Assembly: GCA_027488815.1 (NCBI GenBank)
Contig: JAIYAX010000017.1
Location: 1 to 64,000 of the forward strand
Length of the DNA stretch: 64,000 bases
DNA from: Cytophagaceae bacterium
Lineage (GTDB): Bacteria; Bacteroidota; Bacteroidia; Cytophagales; JAIYAX01
Reading direction: 5' to 3'
The notes under the pieces were generated by a model. It worked only from the letters and a program-made list of their open reading frames with translations, was not told the DNA's origin and did no database searches. A program made the position numbers and the translations under genes. Shown piece by piece: positions 2,175-34,873 of this stretch (its first letter is position 1; every line of letters begins with the position of its first letter).

Positions 2175-4721
2175 ATGAAATCTGCTCCCTTCTTCCTGAC
2201 CTCTGTATTCGTACTTCTTTTTTTTAATGTTTCCGTAGCTCAGTTTTCTCAGCCGGGGGAACTGGATACCACTTTTAATTTTGGTAAAGCCCACCAATAT
2301 TTTAGCGATGCTTGGAATCCCACTCCGGGTGGGGGAGCAAGTTCAACAGTAGAGCAAATCATTGAATTATCTGGAGGGAAGAGTTTCATTGTAGGCGATT
2401 TTCAAACCTACAATGGGATCGTAGTAAATCGCACGGCAAGGCTTAATCCTGATGGCTCACTGGATGGTTCTTTCTTGCCAGGTACAGGTGCAAACAACAT
2501 AGTTTATACTGCTGCTTTACAGTCCAATGGTAAGTATTTAGTAGGAGGTGCTTTCACTTCGTTTAGTGGGGCCAACCGAAACAGAATCGTCCGGTTAAAT
2601 ACGGATGGTTCAATAGACCAGAGCTTTACTGTTGGTACAGGTTTTAATGATATCGTGAAATCAATTGCCCTACAGCCGGATGGGAAAGTTTTGGTAGCTG
2701 GTGAGTTTACAAGCTTTAATGGTTCAACATGGAACAGGATTGTTCGATTAAACTCCAATGGCTCAGTTGATGCTTCATTTAACCTTGTACAAGGAGCTAA
2801 TAATGCTATTGACAATATTTATCTTCTACCCAACGGTAAAATACTTATTGGAGGCGATTTCACCAACTTCAATGGAATTACAAGAAATCGGCTGGCGCTT
2901 TTGAATTCGAATGGCAATCTTGACACGTTGTTTAATATAGGTTCAGGGGCAAATGGTACTATTGAGGCTACAGAACTTCAATCAGATGGTAAGATATTGA
3001 TTGGAGGTAGCTTTACTACATATAATGGAGTAGCAAGAAACTACATCGCCAGAATACACTCCAATGGTAGTTTAGACACGAGCTTTGTGCCAACAAGTCT
3101 TTCTTTAAATTTTGTAAAAGCAATTAGTATTCAATCAAATGGAAATATACTGATAGGTGGACTTGTAGGATTTGCATCAAATGGATTTAGCATTAGAAGA
3201 CTTAATTCCTTAGGTGCATTAGATAATACATTTCAATCAGGGAATACAGGTTTTGGAGGAACTGTATTATGCATTAGAAGTTTATCTAATGGAGAGATTT
3301 TAATTTCAGGAGAGTTTAGCTTGTATCAAAGTATTCCAAGAAGTAGGATTGCTAAGTTGAAGCTTAACGGATCACTTGATGTGAATTTTAATTTGGGAAC
3401 TGGGTCCAATGGGGAATTAAGAGTTTTAAAGATTCAAGCAAATGGCAAAATACTCATATCAGGAAATCTTAGTTTGTACAACGATCAATTAGTTTCAGGC
3501 CTAGTTAGGATTAATTCAGATGGTTTGTTAGATACTAGTTTTAATACATCTGTTAATGGGTATTCAATTCATTCTATTTTGCTCCAACCTGATGATAAGA
3601 TATTAATTGCTGGATCTTTTTCTTCAGTCAATGGAGTCTCCATTAATAGAATTGCAAGATTAAATCCCAATGGAACTCTAGATAATTCATTCATGTCAGG
3701 ATTTAGTAATAATTCTTCAGCAACAATCCGGTCTATGGTTTTACAGAGTGATGGCAAAATTGTAATTGCTGGAAGATTTAACGAGTACTTCAGTCTTTTT
3801 CACAATGGAATAGTTCGTTTGAACCCAAATGGATCCATTGATTATACTTTTAATTCTGGAGTAGGCATAGCCGGTAGTCCTAGCTCTTCAATAAATAAAT
3901 TAGAACTTTTGCCGAATAATAAGTTTTTAATTGGAGGAAATTTTGATACATACAATGGGTTCTCTAGGCCGAGAATTGCACGGTTAAATTCTAATGGTAC
4001 TATAGATGCATCTTTCAATGCTAATATAAGCTCTGCAGAAGGCTCAATATACAATCTTTCTATTATGAGTGATGGAAAATTAGTTATATCAGGAAGTTTT
4101 ACAAATATTAATAATTTCAACAGAAATTATATTGCAAGGTTACATTTAGATGGTGTGCTTGATACTACTTTTGATAATGGTTCAACATTTTATGGTAGTT
4201 TTTCATCTTTGGTACCTCTTTCGAATGGAAGCCTTATTGCTACAGTAGTTGATAATAGTAACCCAAATTCCCCCAAGAATTTAGTTACTAAAATAAATGT
4301 TAATGGAACATTTAGTTCTTTATTTTATATTGACTCAGGTGCTAATTCTGGCATCAACTCGTCCGAATTGCAGGCTGATGGCAAACTTTTAATAGTTGGG
4401 AGTTTTACAAAGTACAGGGGAGTTCATAGAAATCGTATTGCTCGTGTTCATACCGGTGCTGCAACTGTGGGTATAGGAAGTGAATTGTTGAGGAAAAGTA
4501 GCGTGCAAGCATTTCCAAGCCCATTTACCAGTCAATTTCAAATTACTGCCTCTGAGCCATTCCAATACGAACTTTACACCATTGAAGGGAAAAGATATAC
4601 TACTGGCTTTTCCAGCAGCCCTGAGCTAAGCCTCTCCACCTCTGCATGGCCATCCGGCACCTATATCCTTCGCATCATCACAGAAGAGGGGGTATCGGTT
4701 AGGAAGTTGGTGAAGGAGTAA
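2175..4721 (+). CDS. Delta-60 repeat T9SS-secreted protein
   Basis: This 848-residue protein begins with a signal peptide (hydrophobic stretch 'FLTSVFVLLFFNVSVAQ'). It continues with 'LDTTFNFG' and about 13 delta-60 repeats (DUF5122), each ending in a segment like 'RIARLNPNGTLDNSF'. The final ~75 residues are a T9SS type A sorting domain ending in 'RKLVKE'. A large extracellular beta-propeller protein is the best description; its substrate or partner is unknown. It is the tandem paralogue of the preceding truncated gene. Residues near 180-290 and the C-terminus are almost identical to that gene, while repeats 5-13 differ strongly. No obvious terminator separates the two genes. Confidence 0.92.
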   Translation: MKSAPFFLTSVFVLLFFNVSVAQFSQPGELDTTFNFGKAHQYFSDAWNPTPGGGASSTVEQIIELSGGKSFIVGDFQTYNGIVVNRTARLNPDGSLDGSFLPGTGANNIVYTAALQSNGKYLVGGAFTSFSGANRNRIVRLNTDGSIDQSFTVGTGFNDIVKSIALQPDGKVLVAGEFTSFNGSTWNRIVRLNSNGSVDASFNLVQGANNAIDNIYLLPNGKILIGGDFTNFNGITRNRLALLNSNGNLDTLFNIGSGANGTIEATELQSDGKILIGGSFTTYNGVARNYIARIHSNGSLDTSFVPTSLSLNFVKAISIQSNGNILIGGLVGFASNGFSIRRLNSLGALDNTFQSGNTGFGGTVLCIRSLSNGEILISGEFSLYQSIPRSRIAKLKLNGSLDVNFNLGTGSNGELRVLKIQANGKILISGNLSLYNDQLVSGLVRINSDGLLDTSFNTSVNGYSIHSILLQPDDKILIAGSFSSVNGVSINRIARLNPNGTLDNSFMSGFSNNSSATIRSMVLQSDGKIVIAGRFNEYFSLFHNGIVRLNPNGSIDYTFNSGVGIAGSPSSSINKLELLPNNKFLIGGNFDTYNGFSRPRIARLNSNGTIDASFNANISSAEGSIYNLSIMSDGKLVISGSFTNINNFNRNYIARLHLDGVLDTTFDNGSTFYGSFSSLVPLSNGSLIATVVDNSNPNSPKNLVTKINVNGTFSSLFYIDSGANSGINSSELQADGKLLIVGSFTKYRGVHRNRIARVHTGAATVGIGSELLRKSSVQAFPSPFTSQFQITASEPFQYELYTIEGKRYTTGFSSSPELSLSTSAWPSGTYILRIITEEGVSVRKLVKE
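2708..3040 (+). repeat. Near-identical copy of window bases 1-333 (paralogous block)
   Basis: Starting at TACAAGCTTTAATGG, this stretch repeats the first ~330 bases of the window with only a handful of substitutions, at an offset of 2707. It lies inside the delta-60 coding region. Sequence similarity drops sharply after it, then rises again over the last ~280 bases of both genes. Confidence 0.85.
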
Positions 4722-8297: not shown

Positions 8298-8842
8298 GGA
8301 ATGTAAAGTTAAGTATGCTTTCAGCAATATGCAACATGTTTTAGCACATGACCACCCCTCTCGACTTTGCGTCTCACTGAGGCCTTTGAAGTACAACACA
8401 CCACCTCAGCCCTTCTCAACTCGCCCTCGTTTGCAATAGGGGTGAGTGAGTTATTCGCTTTCAGCGAATGCAGCTTTATTCCTTTCACAATACTGTAACT
8501 TTAACCAGCCCCCTCCCATCTGTATATCTCTGGCACTGCTGAAAATTCATTTTTGGTCCAATCTCAAGATACTGAAGAAAATTGTAAGTTTAGCTCTCTT
8601 ATTTTGGTTAGACGGATTGCAAATCCTACGATATGGCTTCGGAATTACAAATCCCGAAGAGCGGATTTATTCTGTATAAAGAAGCTCCTTCCACATATCA
8701 ACTCATTTTAGTATCAAAACTCTAGGTTAGAACTGTTTGTATGGATCAGGGTATTAAATCGAAAACGTCTGGTGCTGCATGGTTTTTTATGAATTTCAAT
8801 AAATCACATAAAAGCCATGGAGGCTTTTAAGCTGGCTTAGAG
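8298..8842. other. Non-coding gap with one hairpin repeat
   Basis: No gene with coding character is seen here. The small frame at 8446-8679 has no recognisable domain and covers the hairpin. The only structure is near 8614-8659: GGATTGCAAATCC (a 5-bp palindrome) followed by CTTCGGAATT...AATCCCGAAG, a hairpin with one mismatch. Such short GC-edged hairpins look like dispersed intergenic repeats. Confidence 0.5.
8614..8659. repeat. Double small hairpin, likely dispersed repeat
   Basis: Two adjacent palindromes: GGATTGCAAATCC (8614-8626) and a 10-bp imperfect stem CTTCGGAATT / AATCCCGAAG (8637-8659). They lie in the gap downstream of the trypsin-like protease gene. Copy number elsewhere is unknown from this window. 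Confidence 0.4.
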
Positions 8843-14402: not shown

Positions 14403-17400
14403 ATGAAAAATTACCAAATCGTATGCAAACAATGGCTGATGGTCATTGGTTTAATAATGCTTATCAGTGTTCCTTATGCAAATGCACAGTTTTCACTACC
14501 CGGTGAGCTGGATACCTCATTTAATTTTGGAAGACCACACAATTTCTTTTCCGACCCTAATAACCCCCTGCCCAGCGTAGGTGCCAGCGGGATTCGAGAT
14601 ATCTTGATTCAACCGGATGGTAAAATTCTGATTGCCGGCTTTTTCACGACTTACAATGGCTTGACCCGCAACAGGATAGCCCGGTTAAACGATGACGGCA
14701 GTGTCGATGGCAGCTTCAATCCTTTTGGGGGAGCAAGTGGTGCGATAGAAACCATGGCGCTTCAATCGGACGGGAAAATCCTTATTGGGGGGAACTTTAC
14801 CAACTACAATGGCACTGCACGTAACCGGATCGCCCGAATAAATACCGACGGAAGCCTTGACTTAACTTTTAACCCGGGCTCAGGAGCTAATGGCACAATA
14901 TGGGACATAGAGGTTCGGTCAGATGGCCTGATTTATATTGGTGGACAATTTGGAAGCTATAACGGAACAACGGTGGAAGGTCTTACACGACTAACAGCTA
15001 TCGGCCTCAAGGATGCGACCTTTAATCCAAGTGGTACAGGTCTAGGAGGTGGGGTGGTTTATACCCTTGCACTTTATATTAACGATGTCATTTTTGCCGG
15101 AAGTTTTTCAGACTACAATGGTACAGCAAGAAACAATATCGCACGAGTCAACAATACAGGTGGACTAACTACTTTTAACACAACAGGAACAGGCTTTGAT
15201 GGGACTATAAACGACATTGAAATTTACGGCTCCAGTGCAATGCTTGTGGTAGGTAATTTCTCAAACTACAACGGAACCTCACGAAACGGTATAGCTAATA
15301 TTAGTACAAACGGTCCTTTAATTACTTCCGGTTTTAGCTTTGGAACCGGGTTTGGGGGATCATTTATAGATATCAAAACGGTTAAAGAAAACTTCTCAAT
15401 TGGCAGAATTATAGTAGGTGGAAGCTTTACTTCCTATAAAGGGGTTACAATCAACAACTTCATAGCCATTGATTATGCTGGCTCTGAAGATCCTATGTTT
15501 TCCGCTGGAGGAGGAGCTGACTTTTCGGTGAATTGCCTTGCCGTGCAATCGGACGGAAAAGCACTTGCAGCTGGTAACTTTTCCTCTTTCAAGAATCTTC
15601 CCATTAGATTGCCACGAATAAACACCAATGGGTCATTGGATTTGACCTTTAACCCAATTACGGGTGTTGGCAGATTAGCCAATTCAACTGTTTATGCAGT
15701 TGATGAACAATCTACAACACGAATCATCCTGGGTGGACAGTTTACAAGTTACAACGGTACTTTAAAGAACAACATCCTCAGGACTTTTTCTAATGGCCAA
15801 CTGGACGCTTCATTCATTTCAGGAAGCGGAGCAGATAACACCATTCGGAGCCTGGTGGTTTTAACAGACGATCGGATACTTATTGGAGGTGATTTTCTTG
15901 CTTACAACATCACTGCCCGTAACCGAATAGCCCGTTTGAACATCAATGGGGACATCGACAACACCTTTAATCCGGGTTTAGGTGCCAATGGCACGGTACA
16001 AGCCATTGCAGTACAACCGGATGGTAGAATACTAATTGGTGGTTCATTTACGCAATATGCCGGTAACGCACGAAATAGGATAGCTCGCTTGAATACAGAT
16101 GGAAGTTTGGATGCATCCTTTAGCATTGGCACAGGTGCAAGCAGTACCATTCATACCATTGCGGTTCAATCAGATGGTAAGATTTTAATCGGAGGAGCTT
16201 TTTCTACATTCAACGGTACCTCCATCAGCCGAGTCGCCCGACTTAACTCTAATGGGTCACTTGATACCTCTTTTAACATTGGAACTGGCACAGGCGCTGG
16301 GTCTACGGTAAGATCCATTGTGGTTCAGGCAGACGGACGAATTGTTATCGGAGGTGGATTCTTTACGTTTAATGGCATCTCCCGAAATGACATTGCCCGA
16401 TTAAATACCAATGGGAGCTTAGATACCACTTTCAATCCGGGCTCCGGAACAAGTGACGAAGTTTACACCTGTAAAATCCAGCCGGATGGCAAGGTCCTTA
16501 TTGGTGGGACTTTCGGCACCTTTAATGGGGTTAACCGCATTGGCATAGCCAGGCTGAATGCTTTTGGAACTCTGGACCAAAGTTTTGATCCGGGAACAGG
16601 AGCAAGTGGAAATGTTTACAGCACCTCATTACGTTCTGGCAAACTCTTGATCGGAGGTACTTTCGAAACCTACGATAACATTTACAGATCGAGAGTTGCA
16701 CGGGTGCTGGCGCCAAATTGCGCTACCATCAACAATACCACCACCAGCAGTTCCATTTGTCAGGGATCTCAAAAGCTTTTGACAGGTACCAGTACTGGCA
16801 CATGGGTGATCCTTTCCGGGTCGGGCAGCATCAGCGGTAACGTATACACCGCCTCCGGTGGATCAGGTTCAGTTACGATTTACAATGAACTTGGGGGTTG
16901 CACCAGTCCTACGGTTACTTTTTCTGTCAACCCAAGACCTTCTGCCCCAACTGTACCTACACCTTCAGCCATATGTGCAGGAAATACCGCTACGATCACC
17001 CCAACCGCAGGTGCTCCTTTTTATCGGTTTTATGATACGAGTACAGGCTTCAACGCCCTTTCCAATCCGGTAACCAGTTATACAACCCCAAGCCTTACAG
17101 CAACCACTACTTATTATGTAGCTTCACATGCCTTAGGTTGTGAAAGCAACACAAGAACGGCTGTTACAGTAACGGTCAATCCATTGCCGGGCGCTCCTAC
17201 TACGCCTACCCCTTCAGCGATCTGCGCAGGCAACACCAGTACCATCACCCCCACGGCAGGTGGTGCAAACTATAATTTCTATGCAGCTTCTTCCGGAGGT
17301 AGTCCTTTGACAGGTGGGAACGGAGTAGCCAGCTTTACTACGCCAACACTAACCACTACCACCACCTACCATGTGGCTTCGGTAAGTGCAGCAGGATGCG

Positions 17401-18416
17401 AGAGCAGCACGAGAACAGCCGTGACTGCAACCGTTAACCCATTGCCTTCTGCTCCTACAACACCTGCCCCTTCAGCGATCTGCACAGGAAACACCAGTAC
17501 CATCACCCCAACGGCTGGCGGAGCGAATTACAGGTTTTATGCTGCGAGTTCAGGTGGCAGCCCTTTGGCAGGTGGGAACGGAGTAGCCAGCTTTACCACA
17601 CCAACACTTTCCACTACAACCATTTACCATGTTTCTTCAGTAAGTGCAGCAGGTTGTGAGAGCAGCACCAGAACAGCAGTGGCAGTAACCGTGAACCCAT
17701 TGCCTTCAGCCCCGACAGCCCCTGCTCCGGCAGCGATCTGCGCAGGAAACACCGTTACCATTGCCCCTTCGGCTGGCGGAGCGAATTACAGGTTTTATGC
17801 TGCGAGTTCAGGTGGCAGCCCTTTGGCAGGTGGGAACGGAGTAGCCAGCTTTACCACACCAACACTTTCCACTACCACCACCTACCATGTGGCTTCGGTA
17901 AGTGCAGCAGCATGCGAGAGCAGCATCAGAACAGCAGTGACTGCAACTGTTAATCCCAATCCTTCCGTGGCGATCACCCAGTCGGGAGATACACTTCGTA
18001 CAACGACTTTGGGCAGCAGTTACCAGTGGTTCCGAAATAGTCTGCCGGTTTCAGGTGCTATTTCAGCCATTTTGGTGCCCACCCAGTCCGGTAGCTATAC
18101 TGTTCAGGTAACAAATGCCCAAGGGTGCACAGGTACTTCTCCGGCCGTTTCATTCATCGTAACAGGCCTACAGGCAGGCCATTCAATTGCTGAGAGCCTC
18201 AAAGTATATCCTAATCCCTTTATAAACCAGGTAAGGATAGAAGCCGGTACCCAATTTGAATACAGCTTGTTGGACATCACCGGAGCGGTTTTGCTAAATG
18301 GCCGATCTGAAGATCAACAATCTGAGTTGTACCTTGGCGAATTGGCATCAGGCACCTACTTCTTGAGATTGGTTTATGGGGAAGGTATTCAGGTTAAAAA
18401 ACTGATCAAGCAGTAA
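14403..18416 (+). CDS. Delta-60 propeller plus Ig-like repeat T9SS protein
   Basis: A 1337-residue secreted protein. A signal peptide ('LIMLISVPYANAQ') leads to about 13 delta-60 repeats (residues ~35-770). These are followed by an Ig-like segment and about four tandem Ig-like modules of ~86 residues (residues ~840-1190) with the signature 'ICAGNTSTITPTAGG ... YRFYAASSGG'. The end is a T9SS type A sorting domain ('KVYPNPF' to 'KKLIKQ'). It is expected at the cell surface, where propeller and Ig-like stalk domains often mediate adhesion; no ligand is known. The gene is divergent from the sensor kinase across a 240-bp gap and ends at a strong terminator. Confidence 0.92.
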   Translation: MKNYQIVCKQWLMVIGLIMLISVPYANAQFSLPGELDTSFNFGRPHNFFSDPNNPLPSVGASGIRDILIQPDGKILIAGFFTTYNGLTRNRIARLNDDGSVDGSFNPFGGASGAIETMALQSDGKILIGGNFTNYNGTARNRIARINTDGSLDLTFNPGSGANGTIWDIEVRSDGLIYIGGQFGSYNGTTVEGLTRLTAIGLKDATFNPSGTGLGGGVVYTLALYINDVIFAGSFSDYNGTARNNIARVNNTGGLTTFNTTGTGFDGTINDIEIYGSSAMLVVGNFSNYNGTSRNGIANISTNGPLITSGFSFGTGFGGSFIDIKTVKENFSIGRIIVGGSFTSYKGVTINNFIAIDYAGSEDPMFSAGGGADFSVNCLAVQSDGKALAAGNFSSFKNLPIRLPRINTNGSLDLTFNPITGVGRLANSTVYAVDEQSTTRIILGGQFTSYNGTLKNNILRTFSNGQLDASFISGSGADNTIRSLVVLTDDRILIGGDFLAYNITARNRIARLNINGDIDNTFNPGLGANGTVQAIAVQPDGRILIGGSFTQYAGNARNRIARLNTDGSLDASFSIGTGASSTIHTIAVQSDGKILIGGAFSTFNGTSISRVARLNSNGSLDTSFNIGTGTGAGSTVRSIVVQADGRIVIGGGFFTFNGISRNDIARLNTNGSLDTTFNPGSGTSDEVYTCKIQPDGKVLIGGTFGTFNGVNRIGIARLNAFGTLDQSFDPGTGASGNVYSTSLRSGKLLIGGTFETYDNIYRSRVARVLAPNCATINNTTTSSSICQGSQKLLTGTSTGTWVILSGSGSISGNVYTASGGSGSVTIYNELGGCTSPTVTFSVNPRPSAPTVPTPSAICAGNTATITPTAGAPFYRFYDTSTGFNALSNPVTSYTTPSLTATTTYYVASHALGCESNTRTAVTVTVNPLPGAPTTPTPSAICAGNTSTITPTAGGANYNFYAASSGGSPLTGGNGVASFTTPTLTTTTTYHVASVSAAGCESSTRTAVTATVNPLPSAPTTPAPSAICTGNTSTITPTAGGANYRFYAASSGGSPLAGGNGVASFTTPTLSTTTIYHVSSVSAAGCESSTRTAVAVTVNPLPSAPTAPAPAAICAGNTVTIAPSAGGANYRFYAASSGGSPLAGGNGVASFTTPTLSTTTTYHVASVSAAACESSIRTAVTATVNPNPSVAITQSGDTLRTTTLGSSYQWFRNSLPVSGAISAILVPTQSGSYTVQVTNAQGCTGTSPAVSFIVTGLQAGHSIAESLKVYPNPFINQVRIEAGTQFEYSLLDITGAVLLNGRSEDQQSELYLGELASGTYFLRLVYGEGIQVKKLIKQ
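17512..17875 (+). repeat. Ig-like modules with an exact 106-bp DNA duplication
   Basis: Bases 17512-17617 and 17770-17875 are identical by eye, at an offset of 258 bases (86 codons, one Ig-like module). The next upstream module (from ~17250) is clearly related but diverged. This points to recent duplication or gene conversion within the stalk. Confidence 0.85.
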
Positions 18417-18498: not shown

Positions 18499-18721
18499 CT
18501 CCAGTTCTTAGCATCTCGTTGAGACACTCTTTTAGCCAATGATTGTAACTTCAAGTCTTAGCCTCTAGCTGAGGCCTATACAAATTCAAAAAATCAAAGA
18601 TACAAATGTGAAATTCAGCGATGAAAACGGCCTGAGTTTTTAAAATCATGGTAAAACAAGCTTCAAAGAAGGTTTTTTTTATCAATACCTAAGGTCTCAG
18701 CAAGAGGGAAAAACCAGGTGG
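18499..18721. repeat. Intergenic repeat element A1 with extra inverted core copies
   Basis: Two cores of the GTCTCAGYGAGAC family lie on the minus strand (18499-18527 and ~18553-18577). A conserved ~100-bp body with ACAAATGTGAAATTCAGCG follows, then a plus-strand core (18691-18721). From 18558 on it aligns to the elements at 22985 and 33033. The gap 18417-19048 contains this element and the terminator; nothing else is recognisable there. Confidence 0.75.
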
Positions 18722-22973: not shown

Positions 22974-23123
22974 TTCTGGTCTTTGTGTCTCGCTGAAACT
23001 GTACACATTTCAATGACCAAGAATACAAATGTGAATTCAGCGATGAAAACGGCCTGATTTTTTGAAATCATTATAAAGTAAGCTGAAAAGAAGGTTCTTT
23101 TAACAGTACCTAATACCAGGTGG
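22974..23123. repeat. Intergenic repeat element A2
   Basis: A minus-strand core (TGTCTCGCTGAAAC region) is followed by the same body as A1 and A3 ('GAATACAAATGTGAATTCAG', 'GATGAAAACGGCCTGA'). The right end reads CCTAATACCAGGTGG where A3 has CCTAAGGTCTCAGCGAGA..., so about 20 bases including the right inverted end appear deleted. The gap 22700-23610 otherwise shows only the terminator at 22896 and a small hairpin before csbD. Confidence 0.75.
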
Positions 23124-27844: not shown

Positions 27845-28009
27845 CCCTCTGGTTGGTGTTGCGTCACCAACCAGTCCAATTGACCCCTTTTGGTGTTCCG
27901 TCACCAACCAGTGCGATTGTATGAGTCCATTTTTGTCTGATGTCTCAGTGATAAGCAAGGACCAGTTGGAGTATAGAATAGATCGTGTCAGGTGGGGACA
28001 TCTGCCACC
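27845..28009. repeat. Intergenic repeat B1 (165-bp direct repeat, left copy)
   Basis: Matches 28576-28740 with two mismatches and no gaps. It starts with the perfect hairpin CTGGTTGGTG/CACCAACCAG (27849-27874), followed by a partial second copy of the hairpin, a core GTCTCAGTGATAAGCAAGGACCAG (about 27942-27965, shown here as its key bases) and AGGTGGGGACATCTGCCACC. It lies just past the stop of the DUF2442 gene. Confidence 0.9.
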
Positions 28010-28050
28010 TGGGGTAGAGTATGAAATAGGTCGTGGGTAGCTTTTTATTT

Positions 28051-28575: not shown

Positions 28576-28740
28576 CCCTCTGGTTGGTGTTCCGTCACCA
28601 ACCAGTCCAATTGACCCCTTTTGGTGTTCCGTCACCAACCAGTGCGATTGTATGAGTCCATTTTCGTCTGATGTCTCAGTGATAAGCAAGGACCAGTTGG
28701 AGTATAGAATAGATCGTGTCAGGTGGGGACATCTGCCACC
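28576..28740. repeat. Intergenic repeat B2 (165-bp direct repeat, right copy)
   Basis: The second copy of the 165-bp repeat, in the same orientation as B1 and 731 bases away from it. It holds the same CTGGTTGGTG/CACCAACCAG hairpin and GTCTCAGTGA core. It ends 60 bases before the start of the PIN-family antitoxin gene. Confidence 0.9.
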
Positions 28741-28788
28741 GGGGGGAGTATCCTGAGCTGCAAACTCAAGATACCAGGATAGTTTAAC

Positions 28789-28800: not shown

Positions 28801-29025
28801 ATGCAAACTTTTAAGGTAAGTATTCTCAACCCTAAGGCGACTAAGTTACTAAAGTCACTCGCAGAACTTAAGCTCATATCAATCACTGAGCAGCCTGAGT
28901 CCGGATTTAAAGAAATAGTAGATCAGTTGAGAAAGAAAGTATCTGCTCATTCACCTTCTTTCGAAGAAATAACCGAAGAAGTGGAATTGGTAAGATCAAA
29001 ACGCTATGCCAAACGAAAAAATTAG
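28801..29025 (+). CDS. Antitoxin of a PIN-family toxin-antitoxin pair
   Basis: A 74-residue protein starting 'MQTFKVSILNPKATKLLKSL', a pattern typical of small antitoxins paired with PIN-family toxins (TIGR00305 type). The middle 'AELKLISIT' is a short hydrophobic segment, and the charged tail ('EEVELVRSKRYAKRKN') likely contacts the toxin. It overlaps the toxin gene by 20 bases, so the two are translationally coupled. It would bind and neutralise the downstream RNase and repress the operon; this is inference from organisation. Confidence 0.8.
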   Translation: MQTFKVSILNPKATKLLKSLAELKLISITEQPESGFKEIVDQLRKKVSAHSPSFEEITEEVELVRSKRYAKRKN

Positions 29026-29422
29026 ATTAATTATCGATACTAATTTGTGGATTAGTATTTTGCTTTCAAATAGATTCCAAAAGCTCGATACAATCCTTTT
29101 TAGCACTACTACAATCGTACTGTTTAGCAAGGAACTTTTTGATGAATTTATAGAAGTAGCTCAAAGACCAAAGTTTAAGCAATATATCTCCAGTGAAGAT
29201 TTGTTATTTCTCGCTGAAAGTATTCAGGCTAAGGCTGAATTTGTTGACGTTCGATCAGTTGTAAAGGCATGCAGAGATATAAAAGATGACTTTTTACTGT
29301 CTTTAGCAATAGATGGTGAAGCCACTCATCTATTGACAGGCGACAAAGATTTACTAGACCTTAAGAAATTTGGCAATACAAAAATCTTAACTATTGCTGA
29401 TTTTCTGGCAATAGAAACTTAG
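29006..29422 (+). CDS. PIN-domain ribonuclease toxin
   Basis: A 138-residue toxin of the PIN family (TIGR00305-like, 'putative toxin-antitoxin system toxin component'). The acidic active-site residues are in place: Asp in 'LIIDTNLWIS', Glu in 'FDEFIEVAQRPKF', Asp in 'DIKDDFLLSLA', and Asp in 'LLTGDKDLL'. Such proteins cleave RNA in a Mg-dependent way and arrest growth when free of antitoxin. It appears intact, unlike the vapC at 7689. Repeats B2 and B3 flank the pair. Confidence 0.85.
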   Translation: MPNEKIRLIIDTNLWISILLSNRFQKLDTILFSTTTIVLFSKELFDEFIEVAQRPKFKQYISSEDLLFLAESIQAKAEFVDVRSVVKACRDIKDDFLLSLAIDGEATHLLTGDKDLLDLKKFGNTKILTIADFLAIET

Positions 29423-29453: not shown

Positions 29454-29543
29454 CCCTCTGGTTGGTCTTCCGTCACCAACCAGTCCAATAGCTTGAGTCC
29501 ATTTTCGCCTAAGGTCTCAGTAAGATGGTTAGACCAGGTGGGG
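29454..29543. repeat. Intergenic repeat B3
   Basis: A shorter member of the B type. CCCTCTGG and the hairpin CTGGTTGGTC/CACCAACCAG (one mismatch) start it, then CAGTCCAATAG, and the core AAGGTCTCAGTAAGATGG followed by AGACCAGGTGGGG (29511-29543). It separates the PIN pair from the RelE pair. Confidence 0.8.
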
Positions 29544-29616
29544 TTCGGAGATGCTTGCACTGGCTCTTGTATGTTTTAGGATGATAGCCTAACTTTAACA
29601 GAGCAAACTTAGGCAC

Positions 29617-29805
29617 ATGAAAGGTATTCAGTACGTATTAAATGATAAGGACGAGCGTGTTGCCGTTCAGATCGATTTGAAGAAGCACGGGGATTTATGG
29701 GAAGACATCTACGATTCTATTGTAGCCGATTCCAGAAAAAACGAAGAGCGTGTGAGTTTGAAAGACTTAAAGGAAAACCTAAAGGGCAAACGAAAGTCTT
29801 CCTGA
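29617..29805 (+). CDS. Antitoxin of a RelE-type pair
   Basis: A 62-residue protein ('MKGIQYVLNDKDERVAVQID') with the beta-strand then helix pattern of small type II antitoxins. The C-terminal 'SLKDLKENLKGKRK' resembles toxin-binding tails of RelB/Phd-like antitoxins in Bacteroidota. Its stop codon shares one base with the ATG of the toxin (TGATG), so translation is coupled. A TAACTTTA box (one base off the -7 consensus) lies about 20 bases upstream. Confidence 0.78.
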   Translation: MKGIQYVLNDKDERVAVQIDLKKHGDLWEDIYDSIVADSRKNEERVSLKDLKENLKGKRKSS

Positions 29806-30059
29806 TGTATACGATCGTTTTCGCTAAGTCAGCAGCGAAAGAGGTGTATGCATTACCCTCGAAAGCAGTTTTAAAAGTGGTTGAAGCAATAGAAACATTA
29901 GCCGTTGATCCAAGGCCAAATGGAGTTAAAAAGCTTGTTGGATCAAAGAATTTATGGAGAATTCGGGTGGGGGACTATCGAGTGGTATATAGCATTGATG
30001 ATGTGATCTTGGTAGTTGATGTTAGAAAAGTGGGGCACAGAAAAGAAGTGTATGATTAA
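29805..30059 (+). CDS. RelE/ParE family toxin
   Basis: An 84-residue RelE-superfamily toxin ('MYTIVFAKSAAKEVYALP', 'GVKKLVGSKNLWRIRVGDYR', 'VVYSIDDVILVVDVRKVGHRKEVY' across adjoining stretches). The 'WRIRVGDYRVVY' and 'VRKVGHRKEVY' segments are diagnostic and carry the basic residues used for ribosome-dependent mRNA cleavage in RelE. I chose the ATG at 29805; the longer frame from 29697 runs through the antitoxin. Repeats B3 and B4 flank the pair. Confidence 0.88.
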   Translation: MYTIVFAKSAAKEVYALPSKAVLKVVEAIETLAVDPRPNGVKKLVGSKNLWRIRVGDYRVVYSIDDVILVVDVRKVGHRKEVYD

Positions 30060-30117: not shown

Positions 30118-30345
30118 GCAATGCCAAGTGGGTAGACAACCAACCAGTCCAATAGTTAGAGGATATTTTCACTTGGGCTCAGCGAGACGCTAAGTCCAGG
30201 TGTGTTTTATGGCACAAGTCACAGACTTGCGCCAGCTGGATCAACAATGCAAATGTCGAATAGCAGGTTGGTTTATTGTTTTATGTATAAGTACCAAACT
30301 TGCCCCAGCTGGTGCTAAACATTAACTCCCAGCCATTTCGTAACG
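30118..30345. repeat. Intergenic repeat B4 and related remnants
   Basis: CAACCAACCAGTCCAATAG (30137 onward) matches the B1-B3 left part, and GGCTCAGCGAGACGCTAAG with TCCAGG (30176-30200) is the core. After this, GACTTGCGCCAGCTGG and AACTTGCCCCAGCTGG form a loose repeat about 85 bases apart, and CAAGTC ACA GACTTG is a small palindrome. Nothing else is recognised in the gap 30060-30438 apart from the promoter at its end. Confidence 0.65.
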
Positions 30346-30438: not shown

Positions 30439-32982
30439 ATGCATAAAGTGAAGCTGTTTACTTTAATTTTTCTGTTTGCCAACGCAAACCTAAAGGCTCA
30501 GTTTTCCCAACAAGGCCAATTGGATACAACCTTCAATTCAGCTGACAAAGGTTTTGGAAAGGGTGATGGACCAAATACATCTGTCTTTAAATCTATATTT
30601 CAACAAGATGGTAAATTGATAATTGTGGGTGCTTTTACCCGGTATAATGGGATAAGTCGAAACGGGATTGCACGTTTGAATATCGATGGTAGTCTGGATA
30701 CAAGTTTTAATCCGGGAAGTGGTATGATTGGAACGGGTACTGAAATACCGATTATGTATAGCGTTGCTCTTCAAACTGATGGAAAGATTATTATCGGAGG
30801 CAACTTCATAAGCTTTAATGGAACAGCCCGAAACAGAGTAGCAAGATTGAACTCTAACGGCAGCATTGACTCAGCCTTTAATTCTACAATTGGTGCAAAC
30901 AATACAGTCACTTATACGGCTCTCCAAACTGATGGAAAGATTGTTATTGGCGGTTTTTTTTCATCTTACAACGGTGTTTTTCGTAACAGCATAGCGAGAA
31001 TTAACAGTGATGGAAGCTTGGACACCACTTTCAATCCCGGGCTTGGGACAAATAATGGAATCAAGAGTATTGCGATTCAACCTGATGGGAAGATGATTAT
31101 AGGTGGTTTTTTTACAAGCTACAATTCCATACCTAGAAGTCGAATTACTAGGATAAACTCTAATGGCAGCCTTGATACTAGCTTTAACCCTGGTAGCGGG
31201 GCGAGTGGTACTGTTCATTCTATTACACTTCAGCCTGATGGCAAGTCAGTAATAGGTGGAGATTTTTATAGCTACAACAATACAATTCGTTCCTGTATTG
31301 CTCGCATAAATATTAATGGTAGTATTGATACAACATTTAATCAAGGAATTGGGCTATCTGGATGGCCTATTTTAACTGTTTATGCTACTACTATTCAGCC
31401 AGATGGCAAAGTGATCATTGGTGGAACTTTCACGAGCTTTGATAACACTCCTAGAAATAATATCGCTAGATTAAATTCAAATGGAAGCTTAGATCCAAGT
31501 TTTGAAACAGGTACAGGAACAGATGACCTGCTTTATAGTGCTTCTCTTCAAGCAGATGGAAAACTAGTTATAACTGGCAATTTCGCTTCTTACAGGGGTA
31601 GTTTCCGAAATGTAATTGCTCGTTTAAACTCAAATGGTACTTTAGACAATACTTTCAATCCTGGCAATGGAGTAAACGCCTTGATTTACTCAATTGGTAT
31701 ACAATCAGATGGTAAAACATTAATTGGGGGAGATTTTAGAGGAGTTAACGGAACTTTTCAAGGATTTTTCTCAAGGTTAAATTCTAATGGCAGCTTAGAT
31801 ACTTCATTTCAACAAGGTATTGGAGCAAATAATTCGGTTCGTTGCATTGCTCAGAAGACTGATGGGAAGATATTAATTGGTGGACATTTCACAAGATACA
31901 ATAACCAAACTAGAAATTATCTAACTCAGCTTAATTCTAATGGCAGCTTAGATACTACCGCTAGTTTAGTATTAAGTGCTGACTATCATGTATTTGCAAT
32001 TGATATTCAGCCAAATGGAAAAGTAGTTGTTGGGGGCGATTTTTTTAATATTAACTCAATATCCCGTAGACGAATTGCAAGGCTTGACACCAATGGAAGT
32101 GTAGATTTAAGTTTTAACTCAGGAGTTGGACCTAATTTTAGGATATTAACTGTTGCCAGTCAACCTGATGGAAAGATTGTAATTGGTGGTAGATTTACTG
32201 AATACAGTGGGACTCCAAGAATTCGAATAGCAAGGGTTAATTCTAATGGAAGTTTGGATACAACGTTTAATTCTGGCCTAGGTGCAACTGGAACTTCCTT
32301 TAATGAAGTTGCAACAATTAAACTACTAACAAACGGTAAGTTGTTAATTGGGGGTAACTTTACAAGTTATAATGGAACACCGACCAATCATTTCGCTCGT
32401 TTAAATTCAAATGGTAGCTTAGATACAACTTTTAACAATGGAACGGGGCCAAACAATCGTGTATTTTGTATCTTACTTCAACCTGATGGGAAGATTATAA
32501 TAGGTGGAACGTTCACAAGCTATAACGGTATCCCAATTAATAGAATTGCCCGCATCAATTCTGATGGAAGTTTGGATATGACCTTCAACCCTGGAGTTGC
32601 AGCAAATAGTACTGTTGTGGCGGCTTCATTTCAGCCAGACGGCAACTTGATCATAGGAGGAGATTTCACCAGCTACAACGGCATTGGACGAAACCGCATT
32701 GCAAGAATTTGGGGAGGAAATACTGTAGCAGGAGTAGGAGCAGAAACGTTAACCAACAATATCCCATTTGTGTATCCTAACCCTACGCAAGCTTTCATCC
32801 AAGTTAAGGTAGGCAGATCCTTTTCTTACACTTTACACTCAATACATGGTGTTTTACTAGATCAAGGAGTATCCAATGAGCCTGAAGTGACTCTGCATAC
32901 GAACGCCTACCGTTCAGGCACCTATTTGTTGAGAGTAGTAACAAGTGAGGGTATCTCTGTTCAAAAATTTATCAAAGAGTGA
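30439..32982 (+). CDS. Delta-60 repeat T9SS-secreted protein
   Basis: An 847-residue protein with a signal peptide ('LFTLIFLFANANLKAQ'), a starting 'LDTTFNSAD' strand and about 13 delta-60 repeats (DUF5122) with well-kept 'RIARLNSNGSLDTTF' blocks. The T9SS type A sorting domain at the end runs from 'VYPNPTQAFIQV' to 'VQKFIKE'. It is more regular than the tandem pair at the left edge and clearly separate from them. Expected location is the cell surface or medium; function unknown. It lies inside the repeat/TA region, between B4 and A3. Confidence 0.92.
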   Translation: MHKVKLFTLIFLFANANLKAQFSQQGQLDTTFNSADKGFGKGDGPNTSVFKSIFQQDGKLIIVGAFTRYNGISRNGIARLNIDGSLDTSFNPGSGMIGTGTEIPIMYSVALQTDGKIIIGGNFISFNGTARNRVARLNSNGSIDSAFNSTIGANNTVTYTALQTDGKIVIGGFFSSYNGVFRNSIARINSDGSLDTTFNPGLGTNNGIKSIAIQPDGKMIIGGFFTSYNSIPRSRITRINSNGSLDTSFNPGSGASGTVHSITLQPDGKSVIGGDFYSYNNTIRSCIARININGSIDTTFNQGIGLSGWPILTVYATTIQPDGKVIIGGTFTSFDNTPRNNIARLNSNGSLDPSFETGTGTDDLLYSASLQADGKLVITGNFASYRGSFRNVIARLNSNGTLDNTFNPGNGVNALIYSIGIQSDGKTLIGGDFRGVNGTFQGFFSRLNSNGSLDTSFQQGIGANNSVRCIAQKTDGKILIGGHFTRYNNQTRNYLTQLNSNGSLDTTASLVLSADYHVFAIDIQPNGKVVVGGDFFNINSISRRRIARLDTNGSVDLSFNSGVGPNFRILTVASQPDGKIVIGGRFTEYSGTPRIRIARVNSNGSLDTTFNSGLGATGTSFNEVATIKLLTNGKLLIGGNFTSYNGTPTNHFARLNSNGSLDTTFNNGTGPNNRVFCILLQPDGKIIIGGTFTSYNGIPINRIARINSDGSLDMTFNPGVAANSTVVAASFQPDGNLIIGGDFTSYNGIGRNRIARIWGGNTVAGVGAETLTNNIPFVYPNPTQAFIQVKVGRSFSYTLHSIHGVLLDQGVSNEPEVTLHTNAYRSGTYLLRVVTSEGISVQKFIKE

Positions 32983-33032
32983 TGAAACAGCGTTCTTTGT
33001 CCTTTTTGGTGTATCCAACCGCTCTTATTGAT

Positions 33033-33192
33033 TTAGCTTCTCGCTGAGACCTATACAAATTTCAAAGATCAAGGATACAAATGTGAAATTCAGCGATGAA
33101 AACGGCCTGAGTTTTTGAAATCATTATAAACAAGCTGAAAGGAAGGTTCTTTTAACAGTACCTAAGGTCTCAGCGAGACGGAAAGACCATAC
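33033..33192. repeat. Intergenic repeat element A3 with perfect inverted ends
   Basis: TCTCGCTGAGACCT (33039-33052) and AGGTCTCAGCGAGA (33165-33178) are perfect 14-bp inverted repeats bounding a 140-bp element. Its body ('GATACAAATGTGAAATTCAG', 'CGATGAAAACGGCCTGAG') matches A1 and A2. It has no plausible gene and resembles a MITE or a small structured RNA element. Confidence 0.85.
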
Positions 33193-33252: not shown

Positions 33253-33606
33253 TTAAGGATAGTTGACGTTTATCTCCAGGCATCCAATGGCCTCATATTG
33301 CTTATCAACTAGGAAAGCCTCAATCAAAGTAGTGTGGTATTCAAGTACCTTTATAAGGTTATCTGTATTTGTGTTGCCTGTTCTCAACCATATTACTTTT
33401 GGCGGATGACCATAAAGTGTTGCCAAGTCATAGAAGTCAGAATCAAAAGTAACTATTGCGAAACCCTCCTTTTTCGCAAATTCCCATAGCTCTTTGTCGC
33501 TTTTGTTTTCAAGTTCTAAATCTCGTACTTGAGTACAACCTGGAAACGCTTTACTAAGCTTACGGGGGACTTTATAGGAAATATTCTGGTCAAATAGCAG
33601 CCTCAC
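33253..33606 (-). CDS. DUF5615 PIN-like toxin
   Basis: A 117-residue DUF5615 family protein, a PIN-like nuclease fold. The start 'MRLLFDQNISYKVPRKLS' and 'IVTFDSDFYDLATLYGHPPK' are characteristic, with acidic residues at FDQN, ELWEFA and FDSDF in the expected places. DUF5615 proteins are paired with DUF433 antitoxins in a VapBC45-like arrangement, as here: the antitoxin gene is immediately upstream and overlaps it by 4 bases. It is probably an RNase toxin; this has not been shown for this protein. Confidence 0.88.
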   Translation of the reverse strand: MRLLFDQNISYKVPRKLSKAFPGCTQVRDLELENKSDKELWEFAKKEGFAIVTFDSDFYDLATLYGHPPKVIWLRTGNTNTDNLIKVLEYHTTLIEAFLVDKQYEAIGCLEINVNYP

Positions 33607-33827
33607 AAAGCAATTAGAATTTTGTGCTCTCGATCAGCAGCATAGGAAAGTGCCGCCTGAATGTCTTCTTTTGTGAGCTCTGGATAGTCATTGAGTATTT
33701 CCTCTACTGTCATGCCACTGGCAAACCAACCAAGTATGTCATATACACTTATTCTTAGCCCACGAATGATTGGACGGCCAAACCTGATCTGGGCATTAAT
33801 GGTTATTCTTTCAGAATAATGTTTCAT
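33603..33827 (-). CDS. DUF433 antitoxin
   Basis: A 74-residue DUF433 protein with the family signature 'GRPIIRGLRISVYDILGWFA' and 'EILNDYPELTKEDIQAAL'. The domain is a helix-turn-helix-like DNA-binding fold used as the antitoxin and autorepressor with DUF5615 toxins. It overlaps the toxin by 4 bases and begins 7 bases after the stop of a short upstream open frame on the same strand. Confidence 0.88.
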   Translation of the reverse strand: MKHYSERITINAQIRFGRPIIRGLRISVYDILGWFASGMTVEEILNDYPELTKEDIQAALSYAADREHKILIAL

Positions 33828-34841: not shown

Positions 34842-34873
34842 AGGTCTCAGTGAGACGCTAAGACCAGTTGGGG
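34842..34873. repeat. Core of the intergenic repeat family (solo copy)
   Basis: AGGTCTCAGTGAGACGCTAA followed by GACCAGTTGGGG. The perfect palindrome GTCTCA-G-TGAGAC is the clearest form of the core. No body or hairpin arm is attached, so this may be a solo remnant. Confidence 0.7.

Follow-up and report, generated by a model that had tools for sequence, protein, structure and literature searches.

The window, the whole stretch of 64,000 nucleotides analysed here, stems from a Cytophagaceae bacterium whose genome (3.37 Mb, 30 contigs, 99.6% complete), analysed by way of searches and selected stretches, is the sole representative of its genus among those searched. It carries three copies of a short element, termed A1 to A3, a number of related hairpins and, between 27941 and 34867, a region in which six hairpins of the same orientation bracket toxin-antitoxin modules (Table 1). 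The window also contains a very long ORF with ~79-aa repeats and several ORFs with ~51-aa repeats, two of the latter being partly duplicated.

Table 1. Positions of elements, hairpins and neighbouring features in the window.
Feature	Position	Strand	Remarks
A1, three hairpins plus spacer	18502-18717	+	hairpins 18502-18526 and 18552-18576 forward, 18693-18717 inverted
A2, left hairpin plus spacer	22976-23113	+	left hairpin 22976-23000; right hairpin deleted
A3, REP doublet	33027-33190	+	left hairpin 33027-33051, spacer 33052-33165, right hairpin 33166-33190
Spacer core AATTCAGCGATGAAAACGGCCTGA	33087-33110	+	further occurrences at 18612 and 23034; restricted to the five copies in the genome
Solo REP hairpin	34843-34867	-	best preserved of the family in the genome; model 34.6 bits, E 2.4e-6
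Solo REP hairpin	30175-30199	-	E 2.2e-5
Degenerate REP hairpin plus second, different body	29513-29537	-	second body at about 29460-29512
Degenerate REP hairpin plus second body	28672-28696	-	
Degenerate REP hairpin plus second body	27941-27965	-	
Degenerate solo REP hairpin	8360-8384	+	
TA module, VapB15-like/PIN	28801-29422		
TA module, ParE/RelE	29617-30059		
TA module, DUF5615/DUF433	33253-33827	-	
Very long ORF, 4485 aa	40234-53691		~79-aa repeats, 237-nt spacing
ORFs with ~51-aa repeats	194-2005, 2175-4721, 14403-18416, 30439-32982		153-nt spacing

The first-pass annotation had described A3 as an element with perfect 14-bp inverted ends, and these ends, TCTCGCTGAGACCT (33039-33052) and AGGTCTCAGCGAGA (33165-33178), are indeed exact reverse complements. 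The body said to be common to A1 and A2 is likewise real, with identities of 87.8% for A3/A1, 92.0% for A3/A2 and 80.7% for A1/A2, and an A3 query against the genome retrieved A1 at 5.5e-48 and A2 at 2.9e-42, values that do not arise by chance. The count of three copies holds for the window but not for the genome, where a genome-wide search raised the total to five by adding a copy on the minus strand of contig C20 (C20:668.6k) and a diverged copy with a shorter spacer on contig C10 (C10:6627-6772). The bodies of the four close copies are 81-92% identical to each other and 63-69% identical to that of the C10 copy. Since the flanks of the five copies are unrelated and homology stops near the element, the dispersed entity is the unit itself. 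Its exact ends are uncertain because homology among the copies runs slightly past the hairpins, with ACTT on the left and GGTGG on the right; A1 and A3 have 26 bp downstream in common.

The inverted ends are not simple terminal inverted repeats, as they had first appeared, but belong to 25-nt hairpins, CTGG-TCTTAGCG-TCT-CGCTGAGA-CC, of which each end forms the inner half. The consensus of this hairpin, CTGGTCTTAGCG-TCT-CGCTGAGACC, comprises a 10-bp stem and a 3-nt loop, TCT. Imperfections affect the left hairpin of all three window copies and, in A1, also the right one, and a third hairpin is located 25 nt upstream in A1 as well as in the C20 copy. The right hairpin is absent from A2 and from the C20 copy: the right side of A2 reads CCTAA-TACCAGG and that of A3 CCTAAG-GTCTCAGCGAGACGG... 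The right-end losses in both copies are compatible with deletion between direct repeats of CTAAG, CCTAAG[GTCTCAGCGAGACGCTAAG]ACCAGG, which agrees with the earlier proposal that A2 had lost its end by deletion; slippage over the hairpin is the probable cause. The closest relative of A2 is A3, and the C20 copy groups with A1 or A3; as these nearest relatives retain the hairpin, the two deletions were probably independent.

Apart from the A elements, the hairpin also stands alone. With up to two mismatches it occurs at 11 sites in the window vs. 1.8 expected, and the sequence GTCTCRSYGAGAC with up to one mismatch occurs at 26 sites in the genome vs. eight for the reversed control. Six of these 26 fall into the window (Poisson p 1e-5, a value to be read with the fact that the window was picked for its repeats). 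Many hairpins of the family in this genome are mutated. A second body (CGTCACCAACCAGTCC...CCATTTTCG) precedes four hairpins at 27851-27972, 28582-28703, 29460-29545 and 30139-30202 and is, in the genome search, confined to this cluster save for a 23-nt match on contig C19 and hairpin-only matches; in the same region a 173-nt stretch is duplicated at 98% identity (27845-28017 and 28576-28748).

Beyond this genome, a search of the species-level genome set for the exact 21-nt hairpin pattern gave 26 loci, the hosts being Roseivirga, Fulvivirga, Cyclobacteriaceae, other Cytophagales and Pedobacter; one locus lies on a small contig of an Oceanospirillaceae MAG that may be misbinned. At two mismatches the hairpin is present in eight of 194 relatives, this genome counted, while a control pattern gave 0 matches. 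The stem shows covariation across a set of 55 distinct hairpins taken from relatives, with 93.3% of cells paired vs. 86.0% in shuffled data and 32 double changes vs. 7.9 in shuffles; a palindromic query such as the one used enriches for paired sites, though not for double changes relative to single ones. Sliding the partner cuts stem pairing to about 35-43%. At sites located by a tag-free core, an outward tag CT[AG]G is present in 76 of 84 cases and GTGG in four. Neighbouring hairpins in relatives are predominantly inverted with the tags outward (26 pairs, vs. two inward, p 3e-6, and 14 in tandem), with gaps of 11-210 nt between the outward pairs. Such an arrangement is the one known from REPINs (REP doublets; PMC3116915). 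A1, A3 and the C10 copy have this inverted doublet with outward tags, and the repetition of a short palindromic hairpin in intergenic DNA, as expected for REPINs and BIMEs, is observed as well. In Roseivirga, an ORF resembling reverse transcriptases and containing a YADD motif is situated near five clustered hairpin doublets (G131:C49:273733-274752; L101:5734-6753).

A hairpin-blind Pfam scan of seven hairpin-bearing relatives yielded two genes that link the hairpin to an enzyme. In one relative (G096) a gene for a Y1 transposase of 183 aa (L126) sits between copies of the hairpin, and in another (G131) a REP-associated tyrosine transposase (RAYT; L134) is flanked by the variant hairpin GGTCGTAGCG...CGCTGCGACC; none of the other RAYT-like genes in the seven relatives lies within 300 bp of this hairpin. 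Loci retrieved with the hairpin as sole query from Roseivirga, Cyclobacteriaceae and Pedobacter also contain RAYT relatives of 60-80% identity, flanked by this hairpin or a variant of it. Under the NCBIfam model for REP-associated tyrosine transposases (NF047646, REP_Tyr_transpos), both L126 and L134 score above the cut-off (105 bits vs. 80), whereas the IS200 model gives 33 bits at a cut-off of 55, and L126 matches the solved TnpArep structure PDB 4er8 (E 4e-5). The enzymes share the motifs SH[IV]H or NH[IV]H, FWQQ (FWLQ in L126) and YIH[QN]NP (YVHYNP in L134), with a HuH-to-Y spacing of 85-86 aa. RAYTs carrying this hairpin form one clade (support 96/94), as would be expected had enzyme and REP co-evolved. 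The sequences themselves establish the hairpins, the covariation and orientation that they display in relatives, and the association there with a single RAYT clade. A derivative with unrelated flanks in G096 has 63 codons from the C-terminal end of the RAYT left between its two hairpins.

The size, the inverted ends and the dispersed intergenic copies of the A element would suit a classical MITE, which would stem from a DDE insertion sequence and possess terminal inverted repeats together with target-site duplications, yet the ends of the element are hairpins and not plain inverted repeats, and the genes that have the same flanking ends encode Y1/HuH RAYTs. Target-site duplications, which the first-pass annotation had recommended looking for, were not seen by eye at any of the five copies; neither such a duplication nor a DDE transposase with the same terminal repeats came to light. 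Target duplications are not expected from the single-strand chemistry of RAYTs. We consider a DDE-type MITE extremely improbable.

The transposase with matching ends, likewise among the suggested targets, exists in relatives but was not found in this genome. Here, RAYTs are encoded on contigs C6 (with an internal TAG), C10 and C17, plus a more distant one on C4, and the best of them reaches 47% identity with L126. Other hairpins flank the RAYT genes of C6, C10 and C17 (GCGCAAGTC..., CTTCGGGATTTG... and CGCCCCCGTTTGC..., respectively), and this hairpin was not found within 300 bp of any RAYT of the genome (30 contigs, 99.6% complete). The genome's own Y1 transposases were accordingly rejected as mobilisers, none bearing the hairpin. 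No RAYT of the cognate clade was found in this genome, so that the pairing of REPIN and RAYT within one genome does not apply, and as the resident RAYTs go with other hairpins the element appears as an orphan relic of its family. Hairpins of the types that flank the resident RAYTs occur in the window, too, at 30212, 8637 and 8422.

The same-orientation hairpins around the PIN, ParE/RelE and DUF5615/DUF433 modules, six in number, could also be read as recombination sites of an integron-like cassette array, the more so as the C10 copy adjoins a fragment of a tyrosine recombinase (L028:6315-6656, minus strand) with partial TIGR02249/XerA matches. This fragment, however, scores 51 against an integron cut-off of 265, and no intact integron integrase was seen in the genome, where four PF00589 hits comprise two partial and two full-length proteins, the latter presumably XerC/D. 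The hairpin also lacks the attC R' box GTTRRRY, having CGCTAAGACCAG at that place (consensus CGCTAAGACC), the toxin-antitoxin modules face both ways, and hairpins elsewhere form inverted doublets or flank RAYT genes. The features of an integron attC site are thus absent, and on the grounds of the missing box, the missing intact integrase and the inverted pairing elsewhere we rejected the cassette reading, which is no more probable than the DDE-type MITE.

With regard to the spacer, the four close copies share the invariant 24-nt core given in Table 1 (longest-run permutation p 0.014), and in comparison with the C10 copy 21 of 26 core positions vs. 35 of 56 elsewhere agree (p 0.13); the invariance offers a weak hint of constraint. 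Spacers of REPINs are usually less conserved than that of the A element. A search of 118 relatives' genomes gave nothing convincing for the spacer, the one match being 21 nt, AT-rich and of E 6.6e-4, and the 23-nt core had no match in the collections genome_contigs and viral_contigs. The idea that the spacer is a RAYT remnant was rejected in view of the lack of any significant RAYT match in the five elements. The invariant core could be taken to speak for a conserved structured non-coding RNA or a cis-acting RNA element such as a 3'-UTR regulator, with ends self-complementary by chance, and A3 folds better than shuffled sequences on both strands (z -3.9 and -3.5). The z-score is explained by the inverted repeats, though, and the consensus fold of the five copies, with 18 pairs and one double change, is opposed by a covariation term of +1.68. 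No Rfam family reaches its gathering score anywhere in the window, a promoter/terminator scan across A3 returned nothing, and the orientation to genes is mixed, A1 to A3 lying downstream of plus-strand genes and the C10 copy between two minus-strand genes. Moreover, the hairpins exist without the spacer and in relatives flank transposase genes. The structured RNA that had been offered as one of two readings of the element is therefore the less likely one, indeed very improbable, and nothing in the data requires an RNA function.

The other of these readings, a non-autonomous transposable element, stands in the form of a REP doublet of a RAYT/TnpAREP system, not as a classical element with terminal inverted repeats and a DDE transposase. 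With a probability of roughly 0.86, A1 to A3 and the copies on C20 and C10 are relic REPINs/BIMEs in which a spacer of ~115 nt separates two inverted REP hairpins and which were mobilised in the RAYT manner. Most likely, A1 to A3 are degenerate REPINs of a CT[AG]G-tagged REP family that in relatives is served by one Bacteroidota RAYT clade. By homology with TnpAREP, single-stranded hairpins and their 5' tags would be bound by a REP-associated tyrosine transposase (HuH, Y1), which would cut and rejoin the strand near the hairpins, and the doublet with its spacer would thereby be copied or moved to other intergenic sites. The mobilisation and cleavage chemistry of the A elements is deduced from homology, and for this lineage mobilisation has to be inferred from relatives, since searches of the genome yielded no RAYT belonging to the cognate clade. 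The enzyme was presumably lost in this lineage, the A elements having outlived or lost it. Decay would then account for the divergence of the close copies by 8-20%, the mutation of several hairpins and the lack of the right hairpin in two copies, the latter most simply via slippage between the CTAAG direct repeats. A wider role, in which CT[AG]G hairpins would process strands actively and mobilise not just doublets, seems rather unlikely; under it, whole RAYT units and internally deleted derivatives would move in relatives, and the same-orientation hairpins around the toxin-antitoxin modules of this genome would mark segments transported or rearranged along with these modules.

Known REPINs and BIMEs include the GI-GIII REPINs of Pseudomonas fluorescens and the BIMEs of E. 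coli with their RAYT (TnpAREP) (PMC3116915; PMC8266576). The A elements resemble these in having inverted hairpins with outward tags and a spacer, in their dispersed intergenic location and in the cognate RAYT that is flanked by the hairpin in relatives. They differ in the conserved spacer of about 115 nt, in the small number of copies with the A body (five), in their degeneration and in that no cognate RAYT was found; furthermore, the tag is CT[AG]G and not the GT[AG]G of canonical REPs (GTAG superfamily). TnpAREP subclass 2.6 (RAYT group 5) has been described as occurring mostly in Bacteroidetes, with a median HuH-to-Y spacing of 82, without GT[AG]G and with atypical secondary structures that flank the genes and recur in the genome (PMC6006769). 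Judged against this published description, the motifs and the spacing of the relatives' enzymes fit this subclass: HuH, WQ and YIH[QN]NP-type motifs, the 85-86 aa spacing, the phylum and the recurring hairpins without GT[AG]G all correspond, whereas the hairpins of the subclass are called weaker and the stems here measure 9-10 bp. IS200/IS605 elements and their non-autonomous derivatives likewise carry subterminal hairpins, which are recognised by a Y1 transposase from this superfamily, but the enzyme associated with this hairpin is by score a REP transposase (105 vs. 33 bits).

The CT[AG]G tag and the enzyme clade refine the picture of a Bacteroidota subgroup that has so far been described poorly. 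One Bacteroidota REP family now has a consensus, consisting of the tag, a covarying 10-bp stem and a TCT loop, as well as a doublet layout and a supported enzyme clade, and it offers a defined substrate for asking whether such RAYTs read a different guide. The genome of the Cytophagaceae bacterium itself looks like the home of a REPIN population that survives beyond its enzyme.
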